Below are positions 10,095-57,230 of a stretch of 64,000 nt of DNA, in pieces. Each line of letters starts with the position of its first letter. Position 1 is the first letter of the stretch. The position numbers were made by a program, and so were the translations under genes. The stretch comes from an uncultured Vicinamibacterales bacterium (lineage in GTDB: Bacteria; Acidobacteriota; Vicinamibacteria; Vicinamibacterales; UBA8438). The stretch spans positions 62,001 to 126,000 of the forward strand of contig CATQHG010000001.1 of the NCBI GenBank assembly GCA_958295905.1. The letters run 5' to 3'. The notes beneath the pieces are model-generated. The model saw only the letters and a program-made list of their open reading frames with translations, did no database searches and was not told the DNA's origin.

Positions 10095-12293
10095 CTACCG
10101 CCGGCGGTCGGGTGCCGGCGCGTCGCCGGTCCGCTGGTCGCCGCCGCGCACGACGCTATCGGGATTCGCGTACAGGTCCCCAGGGGTCGGTGCGGTCGGT
10201 GTAGAAGCGGGCTCGGCGGCGGGGGGTGCCGGGACATCGGTCGCCTGCAGCGGTGCGGTCTCGGTGCGGGTGCTGTCGGTGACCCGGGCGACGAACCTCC
10301 TCCAGAAGCCCGGGCGCGCCGGGGGCGTCTCGGCCGGCGCGGTCCCGCCGGCGGCCGGGCTCGGCGGCGGCGGGGGCGGCGCTGCGGCCGCGGTGTCGGC
10401 CCGGCCGGGCGCAGCGGAAGGTTCAGCCGCGGAGGGTGGTCCAGAGGGGAATCCGGCCGGCACTCGGCCGCGGGCCTGGTCGATGATTCGGTCGACGGTG
10501 TCCTGAACATCGCACACGGCCGCGGCGGTCGCCTCCCCGACCCTGCGGCCGCGGAGCGGGGCGGCTCGGCGGGGTGCCATCGATGCGGCGGTGTCCGCGA
10601 CCCGTTCCTCCAGCTCGCGGCGTAGTCGTCCAACGTCAAGGGTGCCGGCGTAGCCGGCCGTGTGCACGTCGTCGAGCCCGTCGATCTCGATGTACCGGTC
10701 ACCCCCGCCCGTTTCGTGCTCGCGCCCGAGCGCCTTCCGCACCTCGCGCCACGGCAGCCCCGCCGGCTGGCGCGCCGCAAGATCGGCTGCGGCCGGCCCG
10801 ACAGCGTCGTGGGCACGCCCCGCGACGACGTCGGCGGTCGGGAGCGGCGGCGGTGCGGCCGGCTCCGCCGGCGGTGGGGTCGGGCGCTGGTGCCGCTCGG
10901 CCCGGCGGTCCCGCTCGGCGACCAGGGCGGCGCGGTCGAACGCCGGCCGCGGTGGAGGCTCCGCCGGCGGTGCGGCCGCAGTCCGGCGCGCCTCGGCCCG
11001 GACGGAGGGCGGGACGGCCGCGACGACCCGGTGCCGCTCGGCCCGGCGGTCCCGCTCGGCGACCAGGGCGGCGCGGTCGAACGCCGGCCGCGGCGGAGGC
11101 TCCGCCGGCGGTGCGGCCGCAGTCCGGCGCGCCTCGGCCCGGACGGAGGGCGGGACGGCCGCGACGACCCGGTGCCGCTCGGCCCGGCGGTCCCGCTCGG
11201 CGACCAGGGCGGCGCGGTCGAACGCCGGCCGCGGCGGAGGCTCCGCCGGCGGTGCGGCCGCAGTCCGGCGCACCTCGGCCCGGACGGAGGGCGGGACGGC
11301 CGCGACGACCCGGTGCCGCTCGGCCCGGCGGTCCCGCTCGGCGACCAGGGCGGCGCGGTCGAACGCCGGCCGCGGCGGAGGCTCCGCCGGCGGTGCGGCC
11401 GCAGTCCGGCGCGCCTCGGCCCGGACGGAGGGCGGGACGGCTTCCAGAACCCGACGCTGCTCGGCCTGGTGCTCGCGGGCCAAGCGGTCCAGCGCTTCGG
11501 TCCCGCCGGCGACGCGGGCCTCGATCCGGATGATTTCCTCCGCCCGGCGGACGGCCGCGGCGCGTTCAGCCTCGGCGTCGGCGAAGACGACGCCCCGGTC
11601 CGGCGCCGCCTCGGGGCGGTGGGTCAGGACCCGGCCGCGCTTCATCGTCGGTGGTCGGTCGAGCCGGATCGCGGTCTCGCGGTCTCCCCGGGTCTCCGCA
11701 TCGATCCGTTGGGCCTCAAGCGTCCGGTGGTCGATCCGCTCGGGGCTGCCGTGCTCACCAAGCGCGCGGTTGGCGAGATCAGACCATGCCTCGCGCCACG
11801 CCATCAACGCGGACTTGTCATTCCAACTCCTATCCTTCCGCTTCGAGAAGCCGTCACGGTCGCGGTCGATCGGCCGCATCGTCAGCAGTAGGTGGGCATG
11901 GGGATTCCGGCCCCCCTCACCGTGGAACCCGATGTCGGCGATCATGCCCCGGTCGACGAACTGCTCCTCCGCGAACTTCCGGACGAGGCCCCGTCCGGCG
12001 GACGCGGACAGCTCGCCGGGGATGGCGACGCGGACCTCGCGGGCGACCTGGGCGTCGGCTCGGCGTTCGGCGGCCTCGGCGCGGTTCCACAGTTGCGCCC
12101 GGTTCCGGGTCCACGCGGGGGCCCCGGCCGGCGTGAGGATCACGGAATCGTCGACGGCCTTGCGGCGGTAGTCGTGGACCTCGCCGGTCCGCTCGTCGAC
12201 CAACCGCTCGCCGGCGCGGTAGGCGGCCCCGGCGACGGCCGACGCGCCTGCAGACCGTTTCACGATCTGCGCGTTCAAGTGGTAGATGGCCAT
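10095..12293 (-). CDS. MobA/MobL (MOBQ) conjugative relaxase
   Basis: This is a 732-residue relaxase that would nick oriT and pilot the strand during mobilization. The N-terminal catalytic domain (about residues 1-200) begins MAIYHLNAQIVKRSAGASAV with AAYRAGE and DERTGEVHDY. It carries the His-rich metal motif GRNPHAHLLLT (H132, H134). Residues about 285-475 are four nearly identical 47-residue repeats rich in Ala, Pro, Glu and Arg, followed by a Pro/Ala-rich tail with no helicase domain. The frame is intact, in contrast to most neighbours. The start lies 32 bases from a candidate oriT, and the accessory gene at 12414 is divergent, the usual MOBQ layout. Confidence 0.88.
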   Translation of the reverse strand: MAIYHLNAQIVKRSAGASAVAGAAYRAGERLVDERTGEVHDYRRKAVDDSVILTPAGAPAWTRNRAQLWNRAEAAERRADAQVAREVRVAIPGELSASAGRGLVRKFAEEQFVDRGMIADIGFHGEGGRNPHAHLLLTMRPIDRDRDGFSKRKDRSWNDKSALMAWREAWSDLANRALGEHGSPERIDHRTLEAQRIDAETRGDRETAIRLDRPPTMKRGRVLTHRPEAAPDRGVVFADAEAERAAAVRRAEEIIRIEARVAGGTEALDRLAREHQAEQRRVLEAVPPSVRAEARRTAAAPPAEPPPRPAFDRAALVAERDRRAERHRVVAAVPPSVRAEVRRTAAAPPAEPPPRPAFDRAALVAERDRRAERHRVVAAVPPSVRAEARRTAAAPPAEPPPRPAFDRAALVAERDRRAERHRVVAAVPPSVRAEARRTAAAPPAEPPPRPAFDRAALVAERDRRAERHQRPTPPPAEPAAPPPLPTADVVAGRAHDAVGPAAADLAARQPAGLPWREVRKALGREHETGGGDRYIEIDGLDDVHTAGYAGTLDVGRLRRELEERVADTAASMAPRRAAPLRGRRVGEATAAAVCDVQDTVDRIIDQARGRVPAGFPSGPPSAAEPSAAPGRADTAAAAPPPPPPSPAAGGTAPAETPPARPGFWRRFVARVTDSTRTETAPLQATDVPAPPAAEPASTPTAPTPGDLYANPDSVVRGGDQRTGDAPAPDRRR
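10890..11441 (-). repeat. four tandem 141-bp repeats inside the relaxase gene
   Basis: The period is exactly 141 bases (GTCCGGCGCG-type landmark at 10981, 11122, 11263 and 11404), so the reading frame is kept and each unit adds 47 residues (VPPSVRAEARRTAAAPPAEP, then PPRPAFDRAALVAERDRRAE). Units differ by only one or two bases, which implies recent expansion or ongoing homogenisation. Confidence 0.95.
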
Positions 12294-42582: not shown

Positions 42583-45500
42583 ATGGAGGCCAACGCGTCG
42601 AAACCGCTCGGCCCGGTCTGGAAAGACCGCCTCAGTCTCTCCGCCCGCGTTGCGCCGGAGTTCTACGAACAGTCGGACGACGTCGGCGACGTGCCGCATG
42701 CCGGCGCGTTGCGCACCGCGCTCGACGACCTGCGCGGGTCGGCCGTCTTCTGCGTTCAGGACGTCCCGACCGTCGTCATCCTCTCCGTCGACGAGTACGA
42801 TCCCGCCGCCGTCGCCCCGCTCCGCGCCGCGCTCTGGAACCAGGGCCTCGCCAGCCTGCTGCTGGTCGTTTCCGCCGACACCGTTCGCGTCTTCACGCTG
42901 GCTCGCGTCCAGCGCGGCGGCCACGAGGACGACGTCACCGGTTGCCTCGTCGAGGAACTGCACGCCGCCACCGACGCGCTCGCGCTCCGAAACCTGGTCT
43001 ACGCCGCCGAATCCGGCCGCTACTGGGATGCGCATTCCGACCACTTCAGGCCGGAAGAGCGCGTGGACCGGGTGCTTCTCGACAATCTCACGCAGTCGCA
43101 CAAGCAGCTTCGCGCCGCCGGCCTGTCCCCCGACGCGGCGCAGGCGCTGCTGGTGCAGACGATGTTCGTCGCCTATCTTGAGGACCGGAAGATCGTCGGC
43201 GCCGAGTGCTTCCGGGACGCCTCGAACGCGCGCGCCGACGGCTTCGAAGCGTTGCTGCGCTCGGGGGACGTCGAGTCGCTGGAGCGCCTCTTCGGGGCGT
43301 TGCGGAAGGACTTCAACGGCGACCTGTTCGTCGCCCCGTGCTCGTTCGACGTCGACGACCGCGGCCCGCGCCTCGGCCCTTCGCATCTGGAAATCCTGGC
43401 CCGCTTCCGTTCGGGCCGCGAGGAGATGCACGGGCCGGGCGGGCAGTATCGCTTTTGGCCGTACGACTTCAAGTACATCCCGGTCGAGCTGATCAGCGCC
43501 GTCCACGACCGGTTTCTGGGCGAACGGGAACCGGACCGCCGCGCCCGGGGCGCCTACTACACGCCGATGTTCCTGGCCGACACCGTGGTTTCCCACGTCT
43601 GGGACCGGCTGCCGCCCGCGGTCCGGGACGACGGGCGCTTTCTGGATCCGGCGTGCGGCTCGGGCATCTTCCTGGTGCGGCTGTTTCAGCGCCTGTGCGA
43701 GCGCCGGCGCGCCGCCCGCGGCGAACCCGCGATTCCCTGGGACGACCTGATCGACGTCATATCGAGGTTGCAGGGCCGGGACCTGGACGGCGGCGCCCTG
43801 CGCATGGCCGTGTTCTCGCTCTACGTCGCACTGCTCGAAGAGGTCACCCCGCCGGCCGTCCGGACGCTCATGAAGCGTGGCAGGATGCTCCCCCCGCTGT
43901 ACGGCAAGACGCTTCGCCGCGGGGACTTCTTCGCGGTCGAGCCCGACGACGCGCCGGCCGACGTGATCATCGGCAACCCGCCCTGGTCGAGCCGCCGCGG
44001 CGAACGCCATTCGCCTCTCGAATGGTGCGCGGGTGAAGATCTGCCGGCCCCGGGACGGGAGCAGGCGTGGCCGTTTGTCTGGAAGTCGTTGCGGCGCCTG
44101 CGGGAGAACGGCGTCGGCGCGTTGCTCCTGCCGGCGATGGGCTTCCTGCACAACCATGCCGGAGATGCCGTCGAGGCCCGCAAGCGCCTGCTGCGCGAGG
44201 CGCGCGTCCTCAGCGTCGTCAACTTCGCGGACCTGCGGTTCCAGTTGTTCGACGGGGCGGTGCGCCCCGCCGCGCTCCTCGTGTTCGGCCGCCCGCCTGC
44301 CGGCGGCGGCGCCTACCGGTTCGACTACTTGACGCCGAAGGCCGACCTGAACCTGAAGTCCCGGCGCCTGATCACGCTCGGCAGAGCCGATCGCTGCCGG
44401 CTCGACTCCCGCATGGTGGAGGCCGACCCGTCCGTCTTCAAGAAGCGCCTGTGGCTGAGCGAGCCGGAAGCCCGGCTGTTCAACTACCTGGAGCAGTTTC
44501 CCCGTCTCGGCGGCCTCGTGGCCCAATTCGGGACGCTGTCCCGCGGGAAGGAATCGACGCAGGGCCGCTGGATCGTCGGCCAGGGTTTCCAGCCGGCCAA
44601 CGCCGCGAGACTTCGACATGCCGGCCATGAACGAAGCCACGTCGTCGCCAGGACGCCCTACCTGCCGATACGCGAGTTCCGCGTCCTGGCGCGGACGTGC
44701 GACGGGTTGAATCCGTGGAAGGACGGCGTCGTGCGTCGGAGGGGATTCGAAGCGGGGTTCGAGGGGCCGCGGGTGCTGGTTCCGCGGGGCGTCGCCGCCG
44801 GCGCCGGTTCTGGAGGGCCGCGGCTGCGCGCGGTCTACGTCGAAGATCCGCTGACCTTCCAGCACATCATTCAAGCCATCGTCGTTCCGCCGGGAGACGA
44901 GCGTCGCGGCATGCTGCTCGCAGGACTCCTCAACAGCCGGTTGTTGCTGTGGTTCGCGTTCCACGGCACGTCGTCGTTCGGCGCGGATCGGCCCGAGGTG
45001 CAGCAGGCGGAGCTCCTGCGCCTGCCGTTTCCTGCGCCGGACGATCTGCCGGACCGGGAGCGGTCGCGCGCGGCGGCGGAGGCGCTGGCCGCCATCGTCG
45101 AGAAACAGCTTCGACGGCTCGATCCCGTCTCGGTGCCGCTCGATCCGGCCCTTGATCGGCGGCCGGACGAACGCGAACCACTCGCAGAGATCGATGATCT
45201 GGCGTGCGAGTTCTTCTGCCTGTCGGAAGAGGAGAGAGTCCTCGTGGAAGACACGGTGGAGCACGTGATTCCCGCCGCGCAACCGAACCGGGGGCGCTTG
45301 CCCGCGATCTGGCGGCCTTCGACCCCGGGCGACCGCCGCGCGTACGCCCGGACGCTGGCCGGCGCCCTCGCGGACTGGCTCGACGGCGACTGCGCCATCG
45401 GAACGCGTCTGGTGGCGCGCAACGACGATCTGGCCGTACTCCGGCTGTCGCTGCGGGACGGGCCGGGCGCGTTCGACTACGCCGAGGACGACGACGAGTC

Positions 45501-45732
45501 CGTGGCCGTGGCGTTGTCCCGGCTCGCCGAACACGTCCACCAGCCGCTGCCGGGCAACTTCCAGTCGTTGCCGGACTTCCGGGTGTTCGTCGGCCGGGAT
45601 CTGTTCCTCGTCAAGCCGGCCGGGAAGCGGTTCTGGCTCCGATCCGCCGCCTTGGCCGACGCCGACGCCATCGCGCTCGATCTGCATGCGGCCTCGGGCG
45701 GACGGGATGCCGGCGGGCGGGACCGGGCCTGA
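42583..45732 (+). CDS. N6-adenine DNA methylase, Eco57I/type IIG-like, intact
   Basis: The protein has 1,049 residues. The N-terminal about 300 (helical, MFVAYLEDRKIVGAECFRDA) resemble the first part of Eco57I/PglX-type methylases. RARGAYYTPMFLADTVVSHV precedes motif I FLDPACGSGIFLVRLFQRLC (about residue 354), and motif IV DVIIGNPPWSSRR is at about 464. The C-terminal part would carry target recognition (LLAGLLNSRLLLWFAFHGTS). The start is ATG 42583. No nuclease motif is obvious inside, but a nuclease-like gene follows with a one-base stop/start overlap. Together they look like a two-gene restriction-modification system. Confidence 0.85.
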   Translation: MEANASKPLGPVWKDRLSLSARVAPEFYEQSDDVGDVPHAGALRTALDDLRGSAVFCVQDVPTVVILSVDEYDPAAVAPLRAALWNQGLASLLLVVSADTVRVFTLARVQRGGHEDDVTGCLVEELHAATDALALRNLVYAAESGRYWDAHSDHFRPEERVDRVLLDNLTQSHKQLRAAGLSPDAAQALLVQTMFVAYLEDRKIVGAECFRDASNARADGFEALLRSGDVESLERLFGALRKDFNGDLFVAPCSFDVDDRGPRLGPSHLEILARFRSGREEMHGPGGQYRFWPYDFKYIPVELISAVHDRFLGEREPDRRARGAYYTPMFLADTVVSHVWDRLPPAVRDDGRFLDPACGSGIFLVRLFQRLCERRRAARGEPAIPWDDLIDVISRLQGRDLDGGALRMAVFSLYVALLEEVTPPAVRTLMKRGRMLPPLYGKTLRRGDFFAVEPDDAPADVIIGNPPWSSRRGERHSPLEWCAGEDLPAPGREQAWPFVWKSLRRLRENGVGALLLPAMGFLHNHAGDAVEARKRLLREARVLSVVNFADLRFQLFDGAVRPAALLVFGRPPAGGGAYRFDYLTPKADLNLKSRRLITLGRADRCRLDSRMVEADPSVFKKRLWLSEPEARLFNYLEQFPRLGGLVAQFGTLSRGKESTQGRWIVGQGFQPANAARLRHAGHERSHVVARTPYLPIREFRVLARTCDGLNPWKDGVVRRRGFEAGFEGPRVLVPRGVAAGAGSGGPRLRAVYVEDPLTFQHIIQAIVVPPGDERRGMLLAGLLNSRLLLWFAFHGTSSFGADRPEVQQAELLRLPFPAPDDLPDRERSRAAAEALAAIVEKQLRRLDPVSVPLDPALDRRPDEREPLAEIDDLACEFFCLSEEERVLVEDTVEHVIPAAQPNRGRLPAIWRPSTPGDRRAYARTLAGALADWLDGDCAIGTRLVARNDDLAVLRLSLRDGPGAFDYAEDDDESVAVALSRLAEHVHQPLPGNFQSLPDFRVFVGRDLFLVKPAGKRFWLRSAALADADAIALDLHAASGGRDAGGRDRA

Positions 45733-46412
45733 TGATTGGCGACCCCGCCGCTTGGGCGGACCGGTTCCGGTCGCTCGACGGGCGGTTTCTGGAGCGCGTC
45801 GTGGCGGTCTGGCCCCGGTGTCTCGCCGTTCTGCCGGAACGTCCGGGGGAAGACGTCATCACCATCAATCTCGTGGAACTTCTGAACCGCGACCCCGGGG
45901 CGCGGCGCTGGCGCCACTGGATCGAGTATCAGTACGAACCGTTCGGACACACGCCGGCAGGGACGGCGCACAGCAAGGGCAGGGTCGACGTGGCCGTGTT
46001 CCTGAACCAGGATCGCGACCGCTATCTCGCCTACGAGTGCAAGCGCCTCAACGACGTACGTGAAGACGGCAGACGGTCGCTGGCGGGGGAGTACGTGATG
46101 GACGGGCTGTCCCGTTTCGTTGCGGAGCAATACTCGGAGAGCCTGCCCATCGGGTGCATGCTCGGTTACGTCCTCGACGGCGACATGGCGTACGCGGCGT
46201 CGAGCGTCCGAGCGAAAATCATCGCATGCCGACGGAAGATCGCGCTGATCGGCGAGCCGAGGAACGAGGCCGCCGTCGGCGTGGCGACGCGCTTCTCCAG
46301 CCGTCACCGCCGGCGGCAGGGCGGCAGCGACATCGAAATCCGGCACGCGCTGCTGCCCGGGCGACTCCGCGCAGTAGCTTCGGAAGTCTCGGCAGATGCT
46401 CGCACGTCGTAA
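45732..46412 (+). CDS. PD-(D/E)XK-like restriction nuclease partner of the methylase
   Basis: This 226-residue protein starts within the methylase stop (TGATG), so it is translationally coupled. It has VITINLVELLNRDPGARRWR, HWIEYQYEPFGHTPAGTAHS and then GRVDVAVFLNQDRDRYLAYE-CKRL. Glu/Asp about 82-86 and E-C-K about 99-101 form a PD-(D/E)XK core. The C-terminal part (MLGYVLDGDMAYAASSVRAK) is conserved-looking. It most likely cuts DNA left unmethylated by its partner, or acts as part of a phage-exclusion pair. No toxin homolog is recognised. Confidence 0.7.
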   Translation: MIGDPAAWADRFRSLDGRFLERVVAVWPRCLAVLPERPGEDVITINLVELLNRDPGARRWRHWIEYQYEPFGHTPAGTAHSKGRVDVAVFLNQDRDRYLAYECKRLNDVREDGRRSLAGEYVMDGLSRFVAEQYSESLPIGCMLGYVLDGDMAYAASSVRAKIIACRRKIALIGEPRNEAAVGVATRFSSRHRRRQGGSDIEIRHALLPGRLRAVASEVSADARTS

Positions 46413-46696
46413 CGTCGCCACCGTCACGTCAACGCACAGGATTACTTCAGAACTTCAAGCTTGAATTCCATCTGTTGGAGGAGGCCGCCGCGTCCTTCCG
46501 AGCAGCACCGGAAGCGCCTCGCGGAAATCGCCCGTCGACCACCGCCGTGTGCCGACGCTGCGCGACCGGCGGCGTCGCCGCCCCGGGACGGCTGAACGGT
46601 AGCGGCGGCGTCACGCGGAGCCGGAAGACGATCGGTGGGAGGCTCCATTGGATCGGGACGGCGGCTTCGGGATAGGATGCCGCCCCTTGGGAGTCC
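46413..46696. other. intergenic, palindrome only
   Basis: Nothing protein-like on either strand. A perfect 12-bp palindrome, TTCAAGCTTGAA, lies at about 46454 just after the nuclease gene. Confidence 0.35.
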
Positions 46697-46906
46697 GTGG
46701 TGACTAGGGACAGCGATAGAGACAAGGGCGGCCCGGCGGGCTGCCGAACATCGTGCGGGCAGCTGGCGTGGCTCGATCGGCGCAGCGCCGCTCTCTACGG
46801 CCGCCGGTTCGCCGAGGCCGAGCCGCGGCAGCAGACGGCGCTGCTGGCGCGGCTGGCCGCGGAGCGGGCGGCCATGACGGGGGCGGGAAGGCCGGATGTC
46901 GGCTAG
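46697..46906 (+). pseudogene. gluconate 2-dehydrogenase subunit 3-like fragment
   Basis: The segment QLAWLDRRSAALYGRRFAEA, then EPRQQTALLARLAAER, matches the middle of Gluconate_2-dh3 family proteins (A-W-L-D-x-x-x-x-x-x-x-G-R-R-F-x-x-A-x-x-x-Q-Q-T-A-L-L). The family usually has a twin-arginine signal and about 200 residues; only about 45 remain, with no signal. It overlaps the start of the CoA-transferase gene by 11 bases. The usual partner flavoprotein gene is absent. Confidence 0.55.
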
Positions 46907-48185
46907 AAGTCCGCGCGTTGGCGGGGCGCGGAGGCCTGGAGGGTCGGTCGGGCGCCGGGCGGAGCCCTCAAGCGGCGATGGGCGGGCGGGTGCGGGGCCC
47001 GCCGCGCCGCTCGACGGCATTCGGGTCGTCGATCTCAGCCGGGTGGTGGCCGGCCCCTACTGCACGATGACCCTCGGCGACATGGGGGCCGACGTCGTCA
47101 AGATCGAGGAGCCGGGGCGCGGCGACGAGTCCCGCGCGTTCGGTCCGCCGTTCCTCGGGGGAGAGTCGCCCTACTATCTCTCCGTCAACCGCAACAAGCG
47201 CAGTTGCACCGTCAATCTGAAGCGCGAGGCGGGCCGGGCCATCGTGTGGCGGCTCATCGCGGGCGCCGACGTCGTCATCCAGAACTTCCGGCCCGGCGCC
47301 GTGGCCCGGCTCGGCCTCGACTACGAGGCGGTCGCGGCGCGCCATCCGGGGGTGGTGTACTGCTCGATCTCGGGGTTCGGCGACGGCGGGCCCGACGCGA
47401 GCCGGCCCGGCTACGACCTGATCGTGCAGGGCGAGTCCGGCCTGATGGATCTGACCGGCGAGGCGGACGGTCCGCCGTCGCGCATCGGCACCTCCATCGC
47501 GGACCTCACGGCGGGGATGATGGCCGCCCAGGGCATCCTCCTCGCGCTCTACGCCCGGCGGACGACGGGCCGCGGTCAGCACGTGAAGATCGCGATGCTC
47601 GACGCGGTAGCGTCGCTGCTAACCTACAACGCCGGCAACTACTTCGCGTCCGGCGAGAGCCCCACCCGCCGCGGGAACGACCATCCCTCGGTGGTGCCCT
47701 ACCAGACCCTGCGGGCCCGCGACGGCTGGATCAACCTGGGCATCGCCAACGACTCGCTGTGGTTGCGCTACTGCAACGCCGTCGGGCGGCCCGACCTGCG
47801 CGACGACCCGCGGTTCGCGACCGCCCCGGAGCGGGTGAAGCACCGGGATGCGCTGGTGCCGATCATCGTCGATCTCACCACCTCGCGCACCGTCGCCGAG
47901 TGGATGGACGTGTTGCGTGCGGCCGGGGTGCCGTGCGGCCGCATCCGCAACGTGGCCGAGGTCTGCACCAACCCGCAGCTCACCACCCGCGGCCGGGTCG
48001 TCGACCACCCGCACCCGACGGCGGGCCAGGTGACGATGATCGGCCAGCCCATCGAGCTGAGCGGGACGCCCTGCCGCATCGACCGCGCCCCGCCCCTGCT
48101 CGGCCAGCACACCGGCGAGGTGCTGCGCGCGGCCGGCTACACCGACGAGGAGATCCGGGCGTTCCGCACCGGCGGGGTCGTCTGA
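46896..48185 (+). CDS. CaiB/BaiF CoA-transferase family protein
   Basis: This intact protein of 429 residues is a family III CoA-transferase, moving CoA between acyl-CoA and an organic acid in the cytoplasm. Conserved features are GIRVVDLSRVVAGPYCTMTL, DMGADVVKIEEPGRGDESRA, the catalytic Asp in SRPGYDLIVQGESGLM, RRTTGRGQHVKIAMLDAVAS and the C-terminal LLGQHTGEVLRAAGYTDEEI. ATG 46896 has GGGAAGG upstream, though the first about 40 residues are low-complexity and the true start may be later. Its last codons and stop are tandemly repeated downstream (48171-48493). Confidence 0.92.
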   Translation: MSARSPRVGGARRPGGSVGRRAEPSSGDGRAGAGPAAPLDGIRVVDLSRVVAGPYCTMTLGDMGADVVKIEEPGRGDESRAFGPPFLGGESPYYLSVNRNKRSCTVNLKREAGRAIVWRLIAGADVVIQNFRPGAVARLGLDYEAVAARHPGVVYCSISGFGDGGPDASRPGYDLIVQGESGLMDLTGEADGPPSRIGTSIADLTAGMMAAQGILLALYARRTTGRGQHVKIAMLDAVASLLTYNAGNYFASGESPTRRGNDHPSVVPYQTLRARDGWINLGIANDSLWLRYCNAVGRPDLRDDPRFATAPERVKHRDALVPIIVDLTTSRTVAEWMDVLRAAGVPCGRIRNVAEVCTNPQLTTRGRVVDHPHPTAGQVTMIGQPIELSGTPCRIDRAPPLLGQHTGEVLRAAGYTDEEIRAFRTGGVV

Positions 48186-48493
48186 CGCGACGCAGCGGCA
48201 AGGACGCCGGCCGGATCCGCTTGGGATCCGTCTTGGGCAGGGAGCGGGTGGTATCGCCGGCTCATGGCGTGCCGCGGCGGGGTCGTCTGACGCGACGCAG
48301 CGGCAAGGACGCCGGCCGGATCCGCTTGGGACCGTTTCGGGGCGGCGGAGCGAAGTGGAATCGGCGGCTCATGGCGCGCGCCGGCGGGGTCGTCTGACGC
48401 GGCGCGGCGCAGCGGCAAGGACGCCGACCGGATCCGCTTGGGACCGTTTCGGGGCGGCGGAGGGAAGTGGAATGGGCGGCTCATGGCGCGCCA
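48171..48493 (+). repeat. three tandem copies (105-111 bp) of the CoA-transferase gene 3' end
   Basis: Units begin at 48171, 48276 and 48383. Each starts GGCGGGGTCGTCTGA (the last codons Gly-Gly-Val-Val and stop of the gene) and ends in CGGCTCATGGCGYGCC. Only the first copy terminates a gene; the others are non-coding. Units are about 85-95 percent alike by eye. Confidence 0.9.
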
Positions 48494-48538
48494 CGTGGTA
48501 GTCTGTTGACGGGTCCAGGTCGGAGATGGTGAAAAGAC

Positions 48539-49073
48539 ATGGACAAGGAAACGCTCACGCTGCTCTATAGCAGCCCGCGTGGCAAGACTCCGCGGCGCGC
48601 CGGCGGTGGTGGGGAAACGGCTCGGATCGGTCAGATTTCGGCGATTTCGACCGCTGGACGACACGTTCTTGGGCCGAGTACGGTCCCGGCCGGATGCAGC
48701 GCAACTTCTGCTGCGGACTGATAGGAGTAATCACCGCGATGATATCGTGGCGGCGGGGGGGAGTAATGCTGGTCACCGCCAAGGCGGATCGGCTCACGGG
48801 CAAGACCGTCCCACGCTCCGCCACCGCCGTGCGCAGGCGGAATCGTGGCGGGTCCTGGGGCTCCGGACGTGCGGCATCGCGGGTTCCCCGGCGCCGGTCG
48901 ATCGGCAAGACGGTGGCGACCCCTCGAATCGGGGGCGAGCCGTCACGCGCCGTCAGCGTGGGATGTCCCTGGCTCACGGGCTGGGTGGATGCGTTGCGGG
49001 CGGTGATTACGTCATTCGTGACCAAGTGAGGGCACGGGTGGGCGGGCAGGGAACGGACTCATCTTGTTCGTGA
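48539..49073 (+). pseudogene. small unknown ORF interrupted by a MITE
   Basis: The ATG at 48539 begins MDKETLTLLYS, then the frame enters the MITE. Removing the MITE and one ATAG repeat joins it to RSNHRDDIVAAGGSNAGHRQ and onward, open to TGA at 49073 (about 127 residues in all). Composition after the join is Gly/Arg-rich and I recognise no family, so the restored frame may be coincidental. Confidence 0.4.
48571..48720 (+). mobile_element. MITE copy 1 (150 bp)
   Basis: Starts CAGCCCGCGTGGCAAGACTC and ends GCAACTTCTGCTGCGGACTG, imperfect inverted repeats of each other. The 4-bp repeat ATAG flanks it (48567-48570 and 48721-48724). The body is near-identical to copies at 55841 and 63068, in the same orientation. 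Confidence 0.85.
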
Positions 49074-49089
49074 TTCAGGAGCAGGTCGA

Positions 49090-49983
49090 ATGACTTTCAG
49101 GCGGATGCGCGGGCTGGCATGCGGTCTGCTGATGCTCGCTGTCGGCGCGGCGGCGCACGGTCAGGCGGTGAAGCACACGGAAGTCGAAGGATGGCCCGAC
49201 CCGCCGACCTCGGCCGCGGGCACCCCGGCCGCCTGGAATTTCGGGCAGGTGTCGGGGATTGCCACGACCGCCAACGGGTACATCCTGATGCTGCACCGCG
49301 GTGCCCAGCCGCTGATGCTGTTCGACCCCGGCGGGCGCTTCGTGCGGGCGTGGGGGGACGGCCTGTTCGACAACGGGAAGGTCGCGGGCATCGCGCCGGA
49401 TGATCGCCGGCCCGGGCAGTCGGGCTACACCGCCGTCTATGGGGCGGCGGGCTGCCACAACTGCGGCGCCCACGCGGTGCGGGTCGACCCCGACGGCAAC
49501 GTCTGGGTCGTCGACGCGCCCGGGCACGTGGTCTATAAGATGGACTTCCAGGGCCGCGTGCTCATGGAGCTGGGCGCGAAGGGGGTCGCGGGCCGCAGCC
49601 GGAACACCTTCAACCTGCCGACGGACGTCGCCTTCGGCCCCGACGGCTCGATCTACGTCAGCGACGGCTACGGCAACGCCCGGGTCGTGAAGTACTCGGC
49701 CGACGGGCAGTACCGGCTGGAGTGGGGGAGCCGGGGCACGGGTCCCGGCGAGTTCGGCTTGCCCCACAACCTCGCGGTGGACGCCGGCGGGCGGGTCTAC
49801 GTCACCGATCGCGACAACCGGCGTGTGCAGGTCTTCGACGCCGACGGCGGGTTCCTGGCCGAGTGGCCGGAGATCGGCGGCAACTCGGCCCTGTTCATGA
49901 CCGCCGACCAGCACCTGTGGACCGGCGGCACGCTGCGGAGCCTCGACGGGGCGGCGGTGGCGACCCTGCCCGGCGGCGCCTGA
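49090..49983 (+). pseudogene. secreted NHL-repeat beta-propeller, C-terminus lost by 13-bp deletion
   Basis: The start MTFRRMRGLACGLLMLAVGA is a signal peptide. NHL/YVTN-type blades follow: GIATTANGYILMLHRGAQPL, AVRVDPDGNVWVVDAPGHVV, DVAFGPDGSIYVSDGYGNAR, NLAVDAGGRVYVTDRDNRRV. Such propellers act in the periplasm or outside. The frame ends at TGA 49983. The two repeats downstream show what was lost: GGCGGGCACGGGA is present there and absent at 49981, and with it the gene would end VTEDGAVFVAQLVGRVQKFV plus five residues at about 50063. The gene is therefore truncated by about 28 codons. Confidence 0.8.
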
Positions 49984-50404
49984 CGGTCACGGAGGACGGC
50001 GCGGTGTTCGTCGCTCAACTGGTGGGCCGCGTGCAGAAGTTCGTCGTCGCGGCGGACGAGTGACGGCCGGGGCCGGGACGGCGGGATGGGTGGCGGTGGC
50101 GACCCTGTCCGGCGGCGCCGGCGGGCGCGGGATGACGGTCACGGAGGACGGCGCGGTGTTCGCCGCTCAACTGGGGCCGCGTGCAGAAAGTTCGTCGTCG
50201 CGGCGGACGAGTGACGACCGGGGCCGGGACGGCGGGAGAGCGGGTTGGGCGGCGTTGGCGACCCTGTCCGGCGGCGCCGGCGGGCACGGGATGACGGTCA
50301 CGGAGGACGGCGCGGTGTTCGTCACTCAACTGGTGGGCCGCGTGCAGAAGTTCGTCGTCGCGGCGGACGAGTGACGGCCGGGGCCGGGACGGCGGGAGAG
50401 CGGG
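49957..50404 (+). repeat. three tandem copies (139-158 bp) of the NHL gene 3' end
   Basis: Units begin GTGGCGACCCTG at 49957, 50096 and about 50254. Each contains the end of the coding region (VTEDGAVFV...RVQKFVVAADE and TGA) and about 35 bases after it. Copy 1 lacks 13 bases; copy 2 has a shift (AAAGTTCG). Confidence 0.9.
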
Positions 50405-50622
50405 ATGGGCGGCGAACCAAGGATGGTGATCGACAGGGTCAACCGCGCCCCGGCGCAGCCGTTTTCTGCGGTTCGGCGCGCCTGACACACGGCAGGTTGA
50501 TTCTGTCGCCGTCCCGAGCCGCCGGAGCGGTTTCGGGAGCGGGGGGCTGCGCCGCGAGGTGCCGGGGGCATCCCGGATGGACCCAGACGGAACCGTGCAG
50601 CAGTGATGGAGGAATGGTCAAG

Positions 50623-51648
50623 ATGAGAGTACGAAGCTTTGCGGTGGCGGCGGCGCTTCTGGTGGCGGCGGCCTCGGCCGGCGCGCAGACCTACGAGCCG
50701 CCGCGGCTGCCCGACGGCAGGCCCGACCTGCAGGGGGTCTGGGACTTCCAGTCGCTGACGCCGTTGCAGCGGCCCGAGGACCAGGACAAGGCGGTTCTGA
50801 CGGCGGAGGAGATCGCGGCCGTCGAAGCCGCGGCGGCCGAGAACAACGCCGCGGCCAACGCCCCCAGCGAGCTGCGCGACGAGCCGTTGCCGGTCGGCGG
50901 CAACGTCGGCGGCTACAACCGCTACTGGGTCGACCAGGACGCCTCGGTGGTCGAAGACGGACGGACGTCGCTCATCGTCGATCCGCCGACGGGCCGCCTG
51001 CCGGCGCGCCAGCCCGGCGTCGATCTGATCGAACTGTCGCTGGGCGAGGACCGGCCCGGCACGCGTCCGGTGCGGGTGCGGGCGGCGGGCATCGGCGCCG
51101 ACAGCTTCGAGGACCGCGGCCTCGCCGAGCGGTGCCTGCTCGGGTTCAACTCGGGTCCGCCGATCGTGCCCGCCGGCTACAATCAGAACATCCAGTTGTT
51201 CCAGACCCCCGACCATGTGGTGGTGCTGCACGAGATGGTGCACGACGCCCGCATCGTGCCCCTCGACGGGCGGGAGCATCTGCCCCAGGGCCTCCACCAG
51301 TGGATGGGCGACTCGCGCGGCTACTGGGACGGGGACACCCTCGTCATCGAGACGACGAACTTCAGCGACAAGACGGCCAGCTTCAATCCCTCGGTGGCCA
51401 CCGCCGTCGGGTCCGGGACCACCCTGCATCTGACCGAGCGCTTCAGCCGGGTGGGCGACGACACCCTGCTCTACGAGTACACCGTGGACGATTCGAGCTC
51501 GTTCACCGCGCCGTTCACCGTCGCGCTGCCGATGAAGCGCGGCAACGGGATGTACGAGTACGCGTGCCACGAGGGGAACTACGGCCTGCTCAACATCCTG
51601 GCCGGCGCGCGAACCGCCGATCTCGACTCTGCCGGGCAGGACCAGTAG
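50623..51648 (+). CDS. secreted protein of a large Acidobacteriota-type family, function unknown
   Basis: ATG 50623 is best placed for the GGAGG at 50607-50611 and starts a signal peptide (MRVRSFAVAAALLVAAASAG, then AQT). The mature start YEPPRLPDGRPDLQGVWDFQ, the ERCLLGFNSGPPIVPAGYNQ region, NIQLFQTPDHVVVLHEMVHD and GDTLVIETTNFSDKT are shared by many secreted proteins of Acidobacteriota and marine bacteria that lack a named function. It ends NYGLLNILAGARTADLDSAG plus three residues. The last about 50 bases are part of a tandem repeat. Confidence 0.8.
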   Translation: MRVRSFAVAAALLVAAASAGAQTYEPPRLPDGRPDLQGVWDFQSLTPLQRPEDQDKAVLTAEEIAAVEAAAAENNAAANAPSELRDEPLPVGGNVGGYNRYWVDQDASVVEDGRTSLIVDPPTGRLPARQPGVDLIELSLGEDRPGTRPVRVRAAGIGADSFEDRGLAERCLLGFNSGPPIVPAGYNQNIQLFQTPDHVVVLHEMVHDARIVPLDGREHLPQGLHQWMGDSRGYWDGDTLVIETTNFSDKTASFNPSVATAVGSGTTLHLTERFSRVGDDTLLYEYTVDDSSSFTAPFTVALPMKRGNGMYEYACHEGNYGLLNILAGARTADLDSAGQDQ

Positions 51649-51870
51649 TCCGGCAACCGCCGCCCGGCGGCCCGTTGCCGCCGGACCGGCTGGCCGGCGC
51701 GCGAACCGCCGATCTCGACTGCCGGGCAGGACCAGTGGCCCGGCAACCGCCGCCCGGCGGCCTGTTGCCGCCGGACCGGCTGGCCGGCGCGCGAACCGCC
51801 GATCTCGACTCTGCCGGGCAGGACCGGTGGCCCGGCAACCGCCGCCCGGCGGCCCGTTGCCGCCGGACCG
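51598..51870 (+). repeat. three tandem copies (about 91 bp) of the 3' end of the secreted-protein gene
   Basis: Units start CTGGCCGGCGCGCGAACCGC at 51598, 51690 and 51780. The first contains the real stop (TAG 51648). Copies differ at a handful of bases (loss of CTCT, TAG to TGG). Confidence 0.9.
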
Positions 51871-51933
51871 AGCCGCCGGGCGTCCGCGTCGTCCCGCGGC
51901 GCGGACGCCGGCTCGTGCAGGCCCGTTGCGCTT

Positions 51934-51969
51934 GGCGTCGTCCCGCGCGGAAAACCGCGGGACGACGCC
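51934..51969. terminator. bidirectional hairpin terminator between convergent genes
   Basis: A perfect 14-bp stem GGCGTCGTCCCGCG / CGCGGGACGACGCC with loop CGGAAAAC lies between the plus-strand gene ending at 51648 and the minus-strand gene ending at 51972. There is no T-run, so it may act with Rho or as an mRNA end stabiliser. Confidence 0.7.
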
Positions 51970-51971
51970 CA

Positions 51972-52854
51972 TCACGCCTCCCGCGTGACCAGCACCTCGA
52001 CCGCCACGGTGTGGCGGCCCCCGCCGACCGTCACCCCTTTCAGGGGGCTGACGTCCTCGAAATCCCGCCCCCAGCCCAGGGTGATGTGGCCCCCCGCCGG
52101 CCTGACGTTGTTCGTGGGGTCGAAGTCCACCCACCCGACGCCCGGACAGTAGACCGACACCCAGGCGTGCGACGCCTGCGCGCCGACCACCCCGGGGTCG
52201 GGGACCAGATAGCCGCTGACGTAGCGGGCGGGGATGTCGTGGGATCGCAGGCAGGCGATCATCAGGTGGGCGAAGTCCTGGCACACGCCGTGCCGGCCGG
52301 CCAGGATCTCGGAGACCGGGGTCGAGACGGTGGTCGCGATCTGATCGTAGGTGAACTCGCGGTGGATGGTCTCCATCAGCGCGCCCACGCCTTCGAGGAG
52401 CGGCCGGTGGGGCGGCAGGGGCCGGCGCCGCATAGCGGGCGAAGCTGCCGCCCCGCGGGGCGAGCGGCGATTCCACCTGGAACTCGACCGCGGCCCGCTC
52501 TTCCGGGGTCTCGCGCGCCCGCAGCCGGCCGGCGGTGTCGGCCACCGAGGGAGAGTCGATTCCGGCGCGGTCGCGCCCCGACGCCGACACCAGGCTCTCG
52601 GCCGTCACCCGCAGGTGGCGGTGGGCATCCTGGATCGCGAAGGTCGTGGTCGCGTTGCCGAAGTAGTCGGCGCGGGTGATCGAGCTGGTCGCCGGCGGAT
52701 CGATCGCGAGCCGCGTCTCCCGTACGGTCTGCGTATCGCCCGCCCGCGGCGTCAGCCGCACTTGGTGCATCGAGAACGACACCGTCTCGGCGTACGCGTA
52801 CCGGCTCGTGTGCCTGACGCGGTAGTCGAGGGCCCGGGGCCGCGCGGCGTTCAT
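51972..52854 (-). pseudogene. transglutaminase-like cysteine protease family protein, one frameshift
   Basis: ATG 52854 starts MNAARPRALDYRVRHTSRYA with the N-terminal beta-domain (FSMHQVRLTPRAGDTQTVRE) typical of bacterial transglutaminase-like proteins. After one shift near 52430, the core follows: METIHREFTYDQIATTVSTP, the catalytic Cys in GRHGVCQDFAHLMIACLRSH, His in GAQASHAWVSVYCPG and Asp in GWVDFDPTNNVRP. Total about 294 codons, the normal size. It is the third gene of an ATP-grasp/alpha-E/transglutaminase operon thought to make or process a peptide-like product. The frameshift may be an error. Confidence 0.85.
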
Positions 52855-52861
52855 CGGCTCG

Positions 52862-53046
52862 CTAGGAGTCTGCGGCCGTAGAACGGCGCCGCCTCCCCCC
52901 GGAGGCGCCCGACTCCCTGGAGGGTTGGTTGGGCGGCGGGCGGAGCAGGCGACGCTCTCCGGGCCAGGAGTCTGCGCCGCAGAACGGCGCGGACTCCTGG
53001 AGGGTTGGTTGGGCGGCGGGCGGAGCCGCAGGCGACGCTCTCCGGG
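52862..53046 (-). repeat. two tandem copies of the alpha-E gene 3' end, with palindromes
   Basis: Each unit (about 80 and 97 bp) contains CCCGGAGAGCGTCGCCTG and CCAACCAACCCTCCAG and ends in a hairpin GAGTCTGCGCCGC-agaac-GGCGCGGACTC (52968-52996; the other at about 52866-52914 is more diverged). The alpha-E frame reads through both copies before stopping at 52862. Confidence 0.85.
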
Positions 53047-55547
53047 CTAGATGCCGGACCGGGGCGGCGTGCGTGAGATAGTCGCGGGTCAGCGCATCCG
53101 AGAGGCCGCGGAGGTCGGTCTGCACCCGGTCCAGCAGCGCCGTCAGGTGGTGACGCCGGCCGTCGCGCACATCGCACAGCTCGTCGAAATCGACGAGTTG
53201 AATCGCCGCCACCGCCGCGGTGATCCGCTTCGATTCGGGCGACGTCCGCCCCGGCGTCGGCGGTTCGGGCAGGTGCGCGACGTGCTGCTTCAGGTGGTCG
53301 AGCTGAAGGGCCACGCCCCGCGGGTTCGCGTCGTCGAGCAGCAGCAGATCGACGACGAGGTTGACGCGCATCGAGGTGAGATAGCGCGACCGATAGGTGA
53401 TCACGCTGTCGGTGGCGTCGAGCAGGAGCTCGATGCGGGCGCGTTCGTCGCCGGTGACCGTCGTCAATCCGTGCCGCAGCAACCGGATCACCTGCAGCGC
53501 GCGTTCGAGCCGGCGCCCGAAGGTCGAGCAGCCGCCACCCGTGGCCCCGGGTCATGCCCTCGCTGACGGCGCCGCTGAAGCTCGCGAGCATCATGACCAT
53601 CTGGTCGAGCGTGCGGCGCAGGCCGCCGCGCTCCCGCCGCCTGGACCGGCCCGACCGCAGGTCCGATTCGAGGCGGCTGATGATGCGCCACGAGTCCGCC
53701 GACAGGCGGTCGCGCAGCAGCCAGGCGGCGTTCCGGAGGCGTTCCACGTGCCACCGGAGGCTGCCGCGCTGCTCCGACTCGGACAGCATCGAGGAGATCG
53801 CCGCCTGCAGGGCTCGGGCGGGGCGGTGGATTGGCGGCGCCCGCTCCGTGCGGCACGTAGCCGAGGTCCGTGATGAAGCTCAGGGCGCCGGTCAACGCCG
53901 CCGTCGAGCGGCGCGACGATTCCTCGGACAGCAGCGGCATTGCGGCGCGCAGCAGCCGCACCGCGGCGTCGACCCGTTCGGCGTATCGGCCCAGCCAGTA
54001 CAGGTTGTCGGCGACCCGGCTCGGCAGGTCGAACGTGGCCCGGCTGACGGCGATGGGGGATACGCCGGCGGGAATCAGCGGGCGGTGGGGCTCGGCCGCC
54101 TCGCCCGCCACCCAGACGTCCTTGCTGCTGCCGCCGCCGAGCAGGGTCACGTCGAGGGAGCCGGTCGACGACGACACCCGCCCCAGCCCGCCCGGCAGCA
54201 CGTCGTAGCCGTCGCCGGCGGACAGCGCGTAGACGCGGATGACGAGGAAGCGCGGCGAGAGGGCCGCCGGCCACCCGAACCGGGGTCGTCGAGAGGGCGA
54301 TCTGCTCCTGCGCCACGTAGCGGTGGGGCTGGCGGGCGATGCGGTCCGCGAGCCGGGCGCGCCGCCCCTCGGGCAGGCGCCGTCCGAACGTCCGTTCCCG
54401 CCGCGCGCTGGGATAGGCCGGCTTGATCACCAGCTTGTCGAGGTGGTCGAGCACATGCGCGCGCGCCGCCTCGTCGCCGCACCACCAAGTGGCCACCGAG
54501 GGCAGCAGCAGCTCCGCATCCAGCAGCCGGCGGCACAGCGCCGGCAGGGAACGCCATCACCCGCCGGCGACTCGGCGACGCCGGCGCCCGGCGGGTTGAT
54601 GACGGCCACGTTGCCGCGCCGCACCGCTTCGACGAGTCCGGACACGCCGCTCTGCGACGCCCCCCCGAACTCGAGGGGGGTCGCAGGGCCTCCGACGGCT
54701 GGCTGCGGAGGATCAGATCGACCGGCTGCAGGCCGCCCAGCGTCTTGATGTAGACGCGGTAGTCGCGGACGGTCAGGTCCGTGCCCTCGACGAGGGTATA
54801 GCCCATGTAGCGGGCGAGAAACGCGTGCTCGAAGTAGTTCTCCGACGCCGGTCCCGGGGTCAGGACGACGATGCGGGGGTTCTGCCGGTGCCCCGGCGCG
54901 CTCGCGGCGAGCGACGTCCGGCGGGTCTCGAAGGTGCCGGCGAGGCGCCGGACCTTCGAGGCGACCAGCACGTCCGGCAGCACCGTGTTGACGACGATGC
55001 GGTTCTCGAGCGCGAAGGCCGAGCCCGGCCGGCGCTTCGGTGCGGTCGCCCAGCACCCGCCAGCCCCCCGTCGGGCGCCCGCACCAGATCGGCGGCATAG
55101 AGGGGCAGCCAGCGTCCGCCGGGAGGCCGCAAGCCGTCGCATGGCCGCAGAAAGGCCGGGTTCGCGTGCAGCCAGTCCGCGGGCAGTGCGCCCGTGCGTA
55201 TGAGTTGCCGCGGGCCGTAGAGGTCGCCGAGCACCGCTTCGTACAGCTCGGCGCGCTGGACGACCGCCCGTTTCAGGTGCGCCCACTCGGCGCCGTCGAT
55301 GACGCAGGGAATCACGTCGAGCGGCCAGGGGCGTTCCCGGGCGCCCCCGCGCTTCTGGACGTGGAACGTCATGCCGTTGTCGCGGATGAGCCGCCGGGTT
55401 TCCTGCGTCCGCCGGTTCATCTCGTGACGGCCGGCCGCGGCAGAGGGCGTTCGTCATCGCCTGCCAATGCGATCGGAGCGCGCCGTCCGCGTCCACCATC
55501 TCGTCGTAGTGGCCGGCGAGCGGGGTATAGGCGGGTGGTTTCGTCAA
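52862..55547 (-). pseudogene. circularly permuted ATP-grasp fused to alpha-E domain, several frameshifts
   Basis: A TTG at 55547 starts TKPPAYTPLAGHYDEMVDAD. ATP-grasp pieces follow in order over changing frames: NGMTFHVQKRGGARERPWPL, VIPCVIDGAEWAHLKRAVVQ, LENRIVVNTVLPDVLVASKV, PRIVVLTPGPASENYFEHAF, DHLDKLVIKPAYPSARRERT. The alpha-E domain begins LPSRVADNLYWLGRYAERVD and ends RDYLTHAAPVRHLARRAS. About 895 codons fits the fused form. Shifts occur near 55430, 55040, 54680, 54545, 54270, 53850 and 53520. This family is proposed to ligate amino acids in small peptide or metabolite synthesis. The density of shifts suggests sequence error as much as decay. Confidence 0.85.
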
Positions 55548-55549
55548 GG

Positions 55550-56160
55550 CCCCGGCTCCGGTGGCGGTCCGGCCGGCGCGGCGTCGACCCGCGGCGCCTG
55601 ACTCGTCGGTCCGATGAACAGCCCCGAGAACCGATACGAGAGGGACGGATGGTCGATCCCGTAGGCCGCGGGGCTGCGCAGCGGATCCGGACGGCGCGGG
55701 AACGGGGAGTCGGCCGCCGTCGGTCCCCCCGGCGCCACGGGGTTGCCGCCCCCGGCGCCGCGGTGCCGTCCGTCCGAAATGAAGGTCGCGGTTCCGAGCC
55801 GGGGGCGCGCGCCGCGTTGTAGAGGGCCGTCGGGGCCCAGCAGCCCGCGGCAAGACTCCGCGGCGCGCCGGAACTGGCCGGCAATGGCGCGGAAACGGCT
55901 CGGATCGGCCAGATTTCGGCGATTTCGACCGCTGTACGACATGTTCTTGGGCCGAGTACGGTCCCGGCCGGATGCAGCGCAACTTCTGCCACGGACTGCC
56001 AGACCAGCGCCTGCCGGGCGTGGGCGGGGTGGGGATTGACCTTGATGACCCCGGGGCGGCGGTGCGGCGCCGGCCGCAGCCGGATGGACTGCGGCGACAG
56101 GATGACCCGCCGGTCGTACTCGTAGCTTGTCCGATGGTTGATGGCGACCTGAATGCCCAT
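55550..56160 (-). pseudogene. transglutaminase/DUF2126 protein, large internal deletion and MITE insertion
   Basis: ATG 56160 begins [20 protein letters not shown] and [17 protein letters not shown], the start of the 1,100-residue transglutaminase-DUF2126 family. After 54 codons the MITE intervenes. Beyond it, in another frame, come [30 protein letters not shown] and [20 protein letters not shown], the C-terminal DUF2126 end. About 900 codons with the whole active-site domain are missing. The gene heads the ATP-grasp/alpha-E/transglutaminase cluster, so this copy of the pathway has lost its first enzyme. Confidence 0.8.
55841..55998 (+). mobile_element. MITE copy 2 (158 bp)
   Basis: Starts CAGCCCGCGGCAAGACTCCG, ends GCAACTTCTGCCACGGACTG, with flanking 4-bp repeats CCAG at 55837-55840 and 55999-56002. 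It lies inside the DUF2126 gene, at the deletion point. Confidence 0.88.
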
Positions 56161-56351
56161 GGAAATCGACGAACGTCGGCGCGCCGACCGCCGCCGGCCG
56201 TTCGTCAGAGCCCGTGGCGGAAGGCCCCGCCGCATTCGACCGGCGATGCCGCCGCCTGACGGCATCGCCGGCGCGCCGGACGGGGCCGGGAGCCCGTCGG
56301 GGAACGCGTCCCCGGCGCGGCTCCGTCCGGCGGTGGGGGCCGCCGCGCGGG

Positions 56352-57230
56352 TCAGTCGAGCTCGGCGTAGATCTTCTCCGCGTTGTCCTCGGCGCTGGTC
56401 AGGGCGCCCCGGCTCATCGCGTAGCCTGCGTAGCGCTCCGGTAGGTCGAGCGAGGCCGCGGTCTCCGCCGCCGACCGGCCGGCCGCCCGGCCTGCCTCGA
56501 CGGCCGCGAGGAAGTCGCGGTTGAACTCGCCGAACTCGCGGAAGTCGGCCCAGCCCATCACCGGACTGTGTCCGGGAATCACCGTGTCGACGCCCTGTAT
56601 GCCGTCGGCCGCGGCGAGCACCGTCTTCCCGTAGTTGACCCCGCTGCCGCCGTTGTTGACGTCGATGTAGGGCACGCCCTTCCAGGCGAACAGGTCGCCG
56701 GTGTGGGCGACGCCGAGGCCCGTGAAGACCACGATGGAGTCGCCGCTGGTGTGGCCGGCGCCGAAGTGGTAGAGGTCGATCTGGTTGGCCCCGTCGAGCA
56801 GGGTCAGGCGATCCTCGTAGGTTTGGCCCGGCAGGTACTGCCGGCCGCCGGCGGACTGGAACGCCGGCATGCGCTCCATGTTCGTCCGGGTGTTGACGTG
56901 GGCCGCCACTTCGACGGGCTGGGCGAAGTCGATGTTGCTCCCCACGTGGTCGCCGTGGGTGTGGGTGTTGATGATCATCGTGACCGGCTCGTCGGTCACC
57001 GTGCGGATCTGGTCGAGTATCGCCCCGCCCCACCCGGGATTCTTCGTGTCCACCACCACCACGCCCTCGCCGGTGACGAGCGCCGCGGTGTTGCCGCCGC
57101 CGCCCGTGATCACGTACAGGTTGTCCTTGACGTGCTCGATCTCGGCGACGTTCCCCTGCGCCGCGGGGCGGCTCATCGCCGCCGCGAGGCCGATCGCGGC
57201 CAGCGCGGCCAGAACCGTGATTCGTTTCAT
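56352..57230 (-). CDS. secreted MBL-fold metallo-hydrolase
   Basis: This intact protein of 292 residues begins [20 protein letters not shown], a signal peptide. The metal site is [20 protein letters not shown] (His90, His92, Asp94, His95). Further ligands follow in [20 protein letters not shown] and DLFAWKG, and [12 protein letters not shown] provides the last His. The shape fits periplasmic class B3-like/SoxH-type hydrolases of Acidobacteriota; the substrate is unknown. Nothing suggests that it is a clinically relevant beta-lactamase. It is convergent neither with a partner nor in an operon: the next gene upstream starts at 58760, on the same strand, over a 261-base gap. Confidence 0.88.

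Follow-up and report, generated by a model that had tools for sequence, protein, structure and literature searches.

Why should several neighboring genes end in tandem copies of their own 3' ends? The question is raised by a 64,000-nucleotide stretch of DNA from an uncultured Vicinamibacterales bacterium (the window; bases 62001 to 126000 of the 147-kb contig C2), in which a first-pass annotation reported four such genes side by side, encoding a CoA-transferase, an NHL-repeat protein, a probable secreted protein, and an alpha-E domain protein. We find that the four genes are not the single phenomenon that had been supposed: three carry local duplications of their tails, and the fourth carries a dispersed element. 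We consider it reasonably probable that the three tails are young, minisatellite-type duplications, the outcome of frequent microhomology-mediated short tandem duplication and of selection that spares gene tails. The copying is of a familiar kind, and it is the abundance of the arrays and their strong leaning toward gene ends over gene starts that are unusual.

Duplicated gene tails

Tandem duplication of the CoA-transferase, NHL, and secreted-protein tails was recovered both by Tandem Repeats Finder (TRF) and by alignment. By alignment, each of the three units contains the last codons of its gene, the stop codon, and 3' flanking DNA, and the units are unrelated to one another, both as the annotation had described. 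The copies within a tail decay independently. The first NHL copy in C2 lacks 13 bp that are present in the other copies, so the frame ends at 49983 in a break specific to C2; in the main contig of the genome, C1, the frame passes through the first copy and ends at the stop equivalent to window position 50063. In C2, the TAG stop of the secreted-protein gene is replaced by TGG in the second and third copies. By eye, the differences between copies at the tails include indels as well as changes at G, C, and T.

The window can be compared with a second version of the same region. The host genome comprises 6.30 Mb in three contigs, is 98.1% complete, and includes C1 at 6.13 Mb. From C2 position 83902 (window 21902) onward, C2 is largely collinear with C1 at about 5.91 to 5.97 Mb, and before that position no block of at least 800 bases was found in the compared C1 stretch (5895001 to 6055000). 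Eleven of the 14 aligned blocks of at least 800 bases are 97.4 to 99.3% identical, and the other three are 93.2, 91.4, and 85.4% identical. C2 is best read, from these alignments, as a second haplotype of the 5.91- to 5.97-Mb region. Frame breaks in C2 that have no counterpart in C1, such as one in the alpha-E gene, could be real changes or sequencing errors. Aligned copy numbers in C2 and C1, respectively, were 3 and 2 for the CoA-transferase, 3 and 3 for NHL, 3 and 2 for the secreted protein, and 2 and 2 for alpha-E; TRF gave 3.1 copies for NHL and 2.0 for the secreted protein in C1. The haplotypes therefore differ at two of the four tails.

Two species of the same genus have no array at any of the three tails and hold a single copy there. 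Every C1 copy of the NHL tail aligns to one place in each of the sister stretches, L102 and L103, as do the coding parts of both C1 copies of the secreted-protein tail. Both C1 copies of the CoA-transferase tail align to one place in L102, and L103 is similar only as far as the stop and then again further downstream. Because same-genus species hold a single copy, we conclude that the units are ancestral gene tails. Elsewhere in C1, where the same-genus genomes G001 and G002 could be aligned with three more stop-straddling arrays (stretch L020, two arrays; L015, one), they hold a single copy; at a further stop-straddling array, in L028, the sister sequence differs. The units are also locus specific. 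Apart from the homologous place in C1, the CoA-transferase tail had a single 39-base match, at 85%, in its own genome, and a 1.68-Mb sample of C1 gave no further match covering 60% of the unit for either the NHL or the secreted-protein tail. Rfam returned no match within 45000 to 57000.

Arrays across the genome

How common such arrays are was estimated from the same C1 sample, which consisted of 84 stretches of 20 kb (27% of C1) taken at regular steps except for six fillers; stretches L023 and L111 to L117, selected through matches to C2, were excluded. An array was defined as a TRF hit with a period of 50 to 500 and at least 1.8 copies, 50 bp being the floor of the search. The sample held 92 arrays (55 per Mb), with units of about 50 to 220 bp (median, 110). 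Forty were intergenic, 24 overlapped only a stop codon, 3 overlapped only a start codon, 5 overlapped both, and 20 lay inside open reading frames (ORFs). When units matching at least three other loci were set aside, the corresponding counts were 29, 20, 3, 5, and 20.

Arrays over stop codons greatly outnumbered those over start codons (24 versus 3; P = 5e-5), also once dispersed elements were removed (20 versus 3; P = 5e-4). Three N-terminal in-frame repeats (periods 51, 51, and 72) that extend more than one unit into the gene were classed as inside ORFs, and keeping them as start only gives 24 versus 6 (P = 0.0014). The excess of stops over starts is real, and the genome-wide enrichment at stop codons for which the annotation had suggested a scan was borne out. 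For 75 arrays, random placement that preserved genes, run on the genome with arrays collapsed, predicted 47.8 in intergenic DNA, 11.8 over a stop, 12.2 over a start, and 3.2 over both, and the numbers observed before the reclassing were 40, 24, 6, and 5 (chi-square P = 4e-4). Overall, 29 of the 72 noncoding arrays overlap a stop codon. The stop lay in the first unit at all 30 stop overlaps (no farther than 1.02 unit lengths from where the array begins), and its position within the unit was uniform (Kolmogorov-Smirnov P = 0.78), as expected of randomly placed segments. The period was divisible by 3 for 19 of the 20 arrays inside ORFs versus 29 of the 72 others. Unique arrays were also counted by gap type (collapsed lengths): divergent, 6 in 92.0 kb; tandem, 38 in 184.3 kb; and convergent, 10 in 68.3 kb.

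The local cluster of four genes is striking, yet it is unexceptional for this genome. With 72 noncoding arrays, the Poisson probability that a 5-kb bin holds at least three is 0.0014, which amounts to about 1.7 such bins in C1, and one of the 84 stretches (L124) contained a 5-kb cluster of at least three. Counts per stretch were somewhat overdispersed (variance, 1.44; mean, 1.08; 64 stretches). What goes beyond chance is that the arrays recur in the second haplotype and that stop-only arrays far exceed start-only arrays genome-wide.

The genus as a whole seems to be rich in arrays, although at different loci. Two complete genomes of the same order had one array each per 200 kb (5 per Mb). In short-read genomes of the same genus, 140 kb of G001 yielded 4 arrays and 80 kb of G002 yielded 6. 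Two genomes from another genus of the family gave 4 arrays (80 kb searched) and 2 arrays (100 kb searched), and matches were at most 77% in five of those six. The stretches from both genera came from contigs with earlier hits rather than from regular sampling, and repeats may be lost in short-read assembly.

Junctions, folding, and replication

Of the 27 two-copy unique arrays examined, 18 were usable, and 8 of these had junction overlaps of at least 4 bp, versus 3.1% of random breakpoints; mixing in tandem copies of dispersed elements brought the count to 14 of 26. Overlaps of this kind fit slippage or microhomology joining.

Signals at the 3' ends themselves were unremarkable. Flanks downstream of genes with tail arrays folded no more strongly than others (median, -39.2 versus -38.9 kcal/mol; P = 0.37; 29 genes versus 603 controls), stems of at least 10 pairs were found in 2.7% of units versus 3.2% of random noncoding segments, and no intrinsic-terminator pattern was found in 47900 to 53200. 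Relative to shuffled sequences, only the alpha-E unit folded far beyond expectation (z = -3.9), the flanks at the other three tails giving -1.6 (secreted protein), 0.1 (NHL), and -0.1 (CoA-transferase). A terminator or hairpin as the cause of duplication was rejected for want of excess 3' folding and of a terminator pattern. Replication direction was rejected likewise: 17 of 30 array genes versus 600 of 1,120 genes overall shared an orientation relative to replication, the positions of origin and terminus being guesses based on GC skew. Ku was present in 21 of 40 genomes searched, including the host; it was present in the low-density genomes G027 and G039, and no match was found in the array-rich sister G002 (97% complete). 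On those grounds, Ku does not seem to track array abundance and is a doubtful cause of it.

Origin of the arrays

How might such duplications arise and come to lie at gene ends? We envision that a strand under replication or repair would re-pair with a short direct repeat (about 4 to 15 bp) some 100 bp away and so create a head-to-tail copy, the candidate routes to that first copy being template slippage or switching or microhomology end joining. The long repeat could then change in copy number through ordinary slippage or recombination. Duplication would occur throughout the chromosome of this lineage, and selection would decide which events survive. Those within genes would persist almost only as multiples of three. 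Those across a start would put a start copy between promoter and gene and would rarely be kept. Those across a stop would be free at any length, as the first copy retains the reading frame and the original stop. Such a filter would explain both the frame rule and the scarcity of arrays at starts, and we infer that selection, rather than mutation, produced the asymmetry.

Several observations weigh against this account. The filter alone does not fully explain why stop-straddling arrays are about twice as frequent as under random gene-preserving placement (24 versus 11.8) while intergenic arrays fall slightly below it (40 versus 47.8). Pure tolerance should not favor tails over free intergenic DNA unless the latter is constrained or underannotated, and constrained intergenic DNA or missed genes may be the source of the twofold excess; genes were called with a custom codon-usage script (score of at least 18) and not with a standard gene finder. 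Start-only arrays are not younger than stop-only arrays (median identity, 87% [n = 3] versus 93% [n = 20]), and thus there is no sign of ongoing purging. Among the 27 two-copy arrays, nine junctions had to be set aside (overlap below -3), and overlaps above 15 were beyond the measurement. Finally, the per-base folding of units is slightly stronger than that of random noncoding DNA (-0.450 versus -0.403; P = 8e-4), a difference that we judged not decisive.

The likeliest alternative is that duplication is directed at gene 3' ends, for example through a link to transcription (paused or terminating polymerase, R-loops, or collisions), such that the tails are mutational hot spots. The preponderance of stop-only over start-only arrays, the twofold excess over random placement, and the scarcity of unique arrays in divergent gaps are all consistent with it. 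However, convergent gaps, which have two 3' ends each, were not the richest, the stop was uniformly positioned in the unit, three of the four tail flanks folded like shuffled sequence, and array genes showed no bias of direction relative to replication. We regard 3'-directed duplication as possible but rather unlikely. The bolder reading, a process linked to transcription in this genus that acts preferentially across 3' ends and whose record is kept since the first copy shields the gene, is likewise rather unlikely. The annotation had held that a mechanism acting at gene ends was implied, which does not follow: 40 of the 92 arrays are intergenic and 20 lie inside ORFs, and the uniform stop position, the absence of a 3'-fold or terminator signal, and the unremarkable replication direction give no call for one.

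That the copies are retained for a function, as extra termination or RNA-stability signals or as variable C termini, is very unlikely. Tandem repeats close to genes can influence expression, and an association between repeat length and expression is reported for a repeat upstream of fpg1 in Mycobacterium tuberculosis (PMC2734929). Here, the copies decay, haplotypes differ in their number, one copy suffices in the sister species, and downstream folding is no stronger for array genes than for other genes. Traces of mobile elements, whether miniature inverted-repeat transposable elements (MITEs), repetitive extragenic palindromic (REP)-like sequences, or target duplications, are a still poorer explanation of the tails and a highly improbable one overall. 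Mobile elements do account for the alpha-E block and for 15 of the 72 noncoding arrays, the units of which match three or more other loci, and the genome has a MITE-like family of 173 bp as well as the 88-bp family. The three tail units, however, are locus specific in the sequence searched, and the single copy in the sister species is the gene tail itself; within that scope, a mobile-element origin was rejected for them, and it was accepted for alpha-E. An assembly artifact is the least credible explanation of all. The window's contig is a minor one next to the 6.13 Mb of C1, and its frames are broken where those of C1 are not, but the copies match at only 88 to 95% and C1 independently carries the same arrays.

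If short tandem duplication filtered by selection is correct, the genome is a natural record of, by extrapolation from 92 arrays in 27% of C1, some hundreds of short tandem duplications sorted by selection. The asymmetry between stops and starts puts numbers to the question of whether duplications originate evenly and are then filtered or originate more often where transcription ends. The arrays, which differ between haplotypes present side by side, would also be useful for marking strains.

Relation to known repeats

Microhomology-mediated tandem duplication, or replication slippage, leaves short junction overlaps and head-to-tail copies. The arrays resemble its products in their overlaps and in their head-to-tail units of about 100 bp, and here the events are frequent enough to mark the whole chromosome. 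The annotation knew of no described process with such a pattern, yet locus-specific, strain-variable tandem arrays are a described kind, the variable-number tandem repeat (VNTR) or minisatellite. The units exceed about 10 bp and lie head to tail, copy number varies at two of the four tails, and the unit is specific to its locus at the three tails though not at alpha-E. Like the exact tandem repeats of M. tuberculosis, they are locus-specific units of tens of base pairs upward, in few copies, in strain-variable number, and limited to one species complex. The kind of array is thus already known, and its abundance and placement are unusual. Among the titles and abstract openings listed in a literature search, none described gene-tail tandem duplication in bacteria.

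Two mycobacterial repeats described in PMC2734929 can be compared. The repeats between rnc and fpg1 are confined to the tuberculosis complex and begin 40 bp after the stop, whereas here the density is about 55 per Mb and a stop is overlapped by 29 of 72 noncoding arrays. Mycobacterial interspersed repetitive units (MIRUs) are 40 to 100 bp long, partly in tandem, and found at 41 places. MIRUs are related copies at many loci, and the three tail units are mutually unrelated; only the alpha-E element resembles them. MITE- or REP-like repeats account for the alpha-E block and some intergenic arrays and not for the three tails. The alpha-E element differs from REP sequences with a resident REP-associated tyrosine transposase in that the Y1 transposase family PF01797 had no match in the host genome, where 5 of 14 control genomes had one.

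Dispersed elements and other features

The alpha-E block (about 52880 to 53046) is absent from the TRF output for the window and was recognized by shared 14-mers. In C1, both copies are in frame and precede the stop of a 651-codon open frame; contrary to the annotation, the block does not run past the stop. Its unit matches 84 places in the 1.68-Mb sample, 69 of them near-full copies. By eye, this 88-bp element starts at TAG. Of its 107 left edges, 20 have the stop of the incoming gene within 10 bp (2.5% at random noncoding points). Thirteen of those 20 stops share one fixed offset (9 bp), another 8 stops share a second one (24 bp), and right edges gave only 2 of 98. We conclude that the 88-bp hairpin element provides genes with stop codons.

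Table 1. Genes and repeats around the duplicated tails, in window coordinates
Feature	Coordinates	Strand	Basis and remarks
CoA-transferase family III gene	46896..48185	+	Pfam PF02515, E 6.9e-140; ORF terminating at 48185; start position uncertain
CoA-transferase tail array, 3 copies of ~106-112 bp	48165..48491	+	Unit spans ~7 final codons, the stop, and ~85 bp downstream; TRF 48165-48491, period 112, 3.0 copies, 88% matches
NHL-repeat gene	49090..50063	+	Pfam NHL (main-contig protein)
NHL tail array, 3 copies of ~150-160 bp	49949..50414	+	Unit spans ~38 final codons, the stop, and downstream flank; start 49949 from BLAST, alignment; TRF 49981-50414, period 159, 2.8 copies, 92% matches
Probable secreted-protein gene	50623..51648	+	Stop TAG at 51648; signal-like N-terminal stretch and start by eye
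Secreted-protein tail array, 3 copies of ~90-92 bp	51598..51870	+	Unit spans ~17 final codons, the stop, and downstream flank; TRF 51598-51870, period 90, 3.0 copies, 95% matches
Alpha-E domain, 3' part of frame	52862..53491	-	Pfam PF04168, E 2.4e-25; frame open for 651 codons in main contig
Dispersed 88-bp hairpin element, two copies of ~83 bp	52880..53046	-	Fold z = -3.9; family copies in C1 sample

The main-contig version of the secreted protein had no Pfam match. Proteins 90 to 91% identical to the NHL protein were found in two metagenome genomes labeled Vicinamibacteria bacterium and one 80% identical in a genome labeled Acidobacteria bacterium, all in one scan.

Two more dispersed elements lie between the CoA-transferase and NHL genes. 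The 173-bp element at 48800 to 48972 is MITE-like by eye, with terminal inverted repeats and, at several copies, flanking direct repeats of 9 to 10 bp. The C1 sample held 71 near-full copies, 70 of them intergenic; the element had no match in G001 and just a 22-base match in G002. A third element, of about 150 bp (48569 to 48722), has 13 near-full copies in the sample. By eye, these two elements break a small ORF that stays uninterrupted in L102 and L103. Four arrays in C1 (L010 14229-14596, L039 18120-18495, L062 5660-5973, and L175 8839-9215) have units of 170 to 185 bp with about 80 other matches each; the units of the L010, L039, and L062 arrays match the 173-bp element, and neighboring copies there seem, by eye, to share flanking target duplications.

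Two further tandem duplications were noted. In one sister species, a 110-bp duplication (L102 6415-6623) crosses the start of a transglutaminase-type gene beside alpha-E. In the window, an array with a 141-bp unit (47 codons; 3.9 copies, 99% matches by TRF) lies at 10889 to 11441, inside a minus-strand ORF call.

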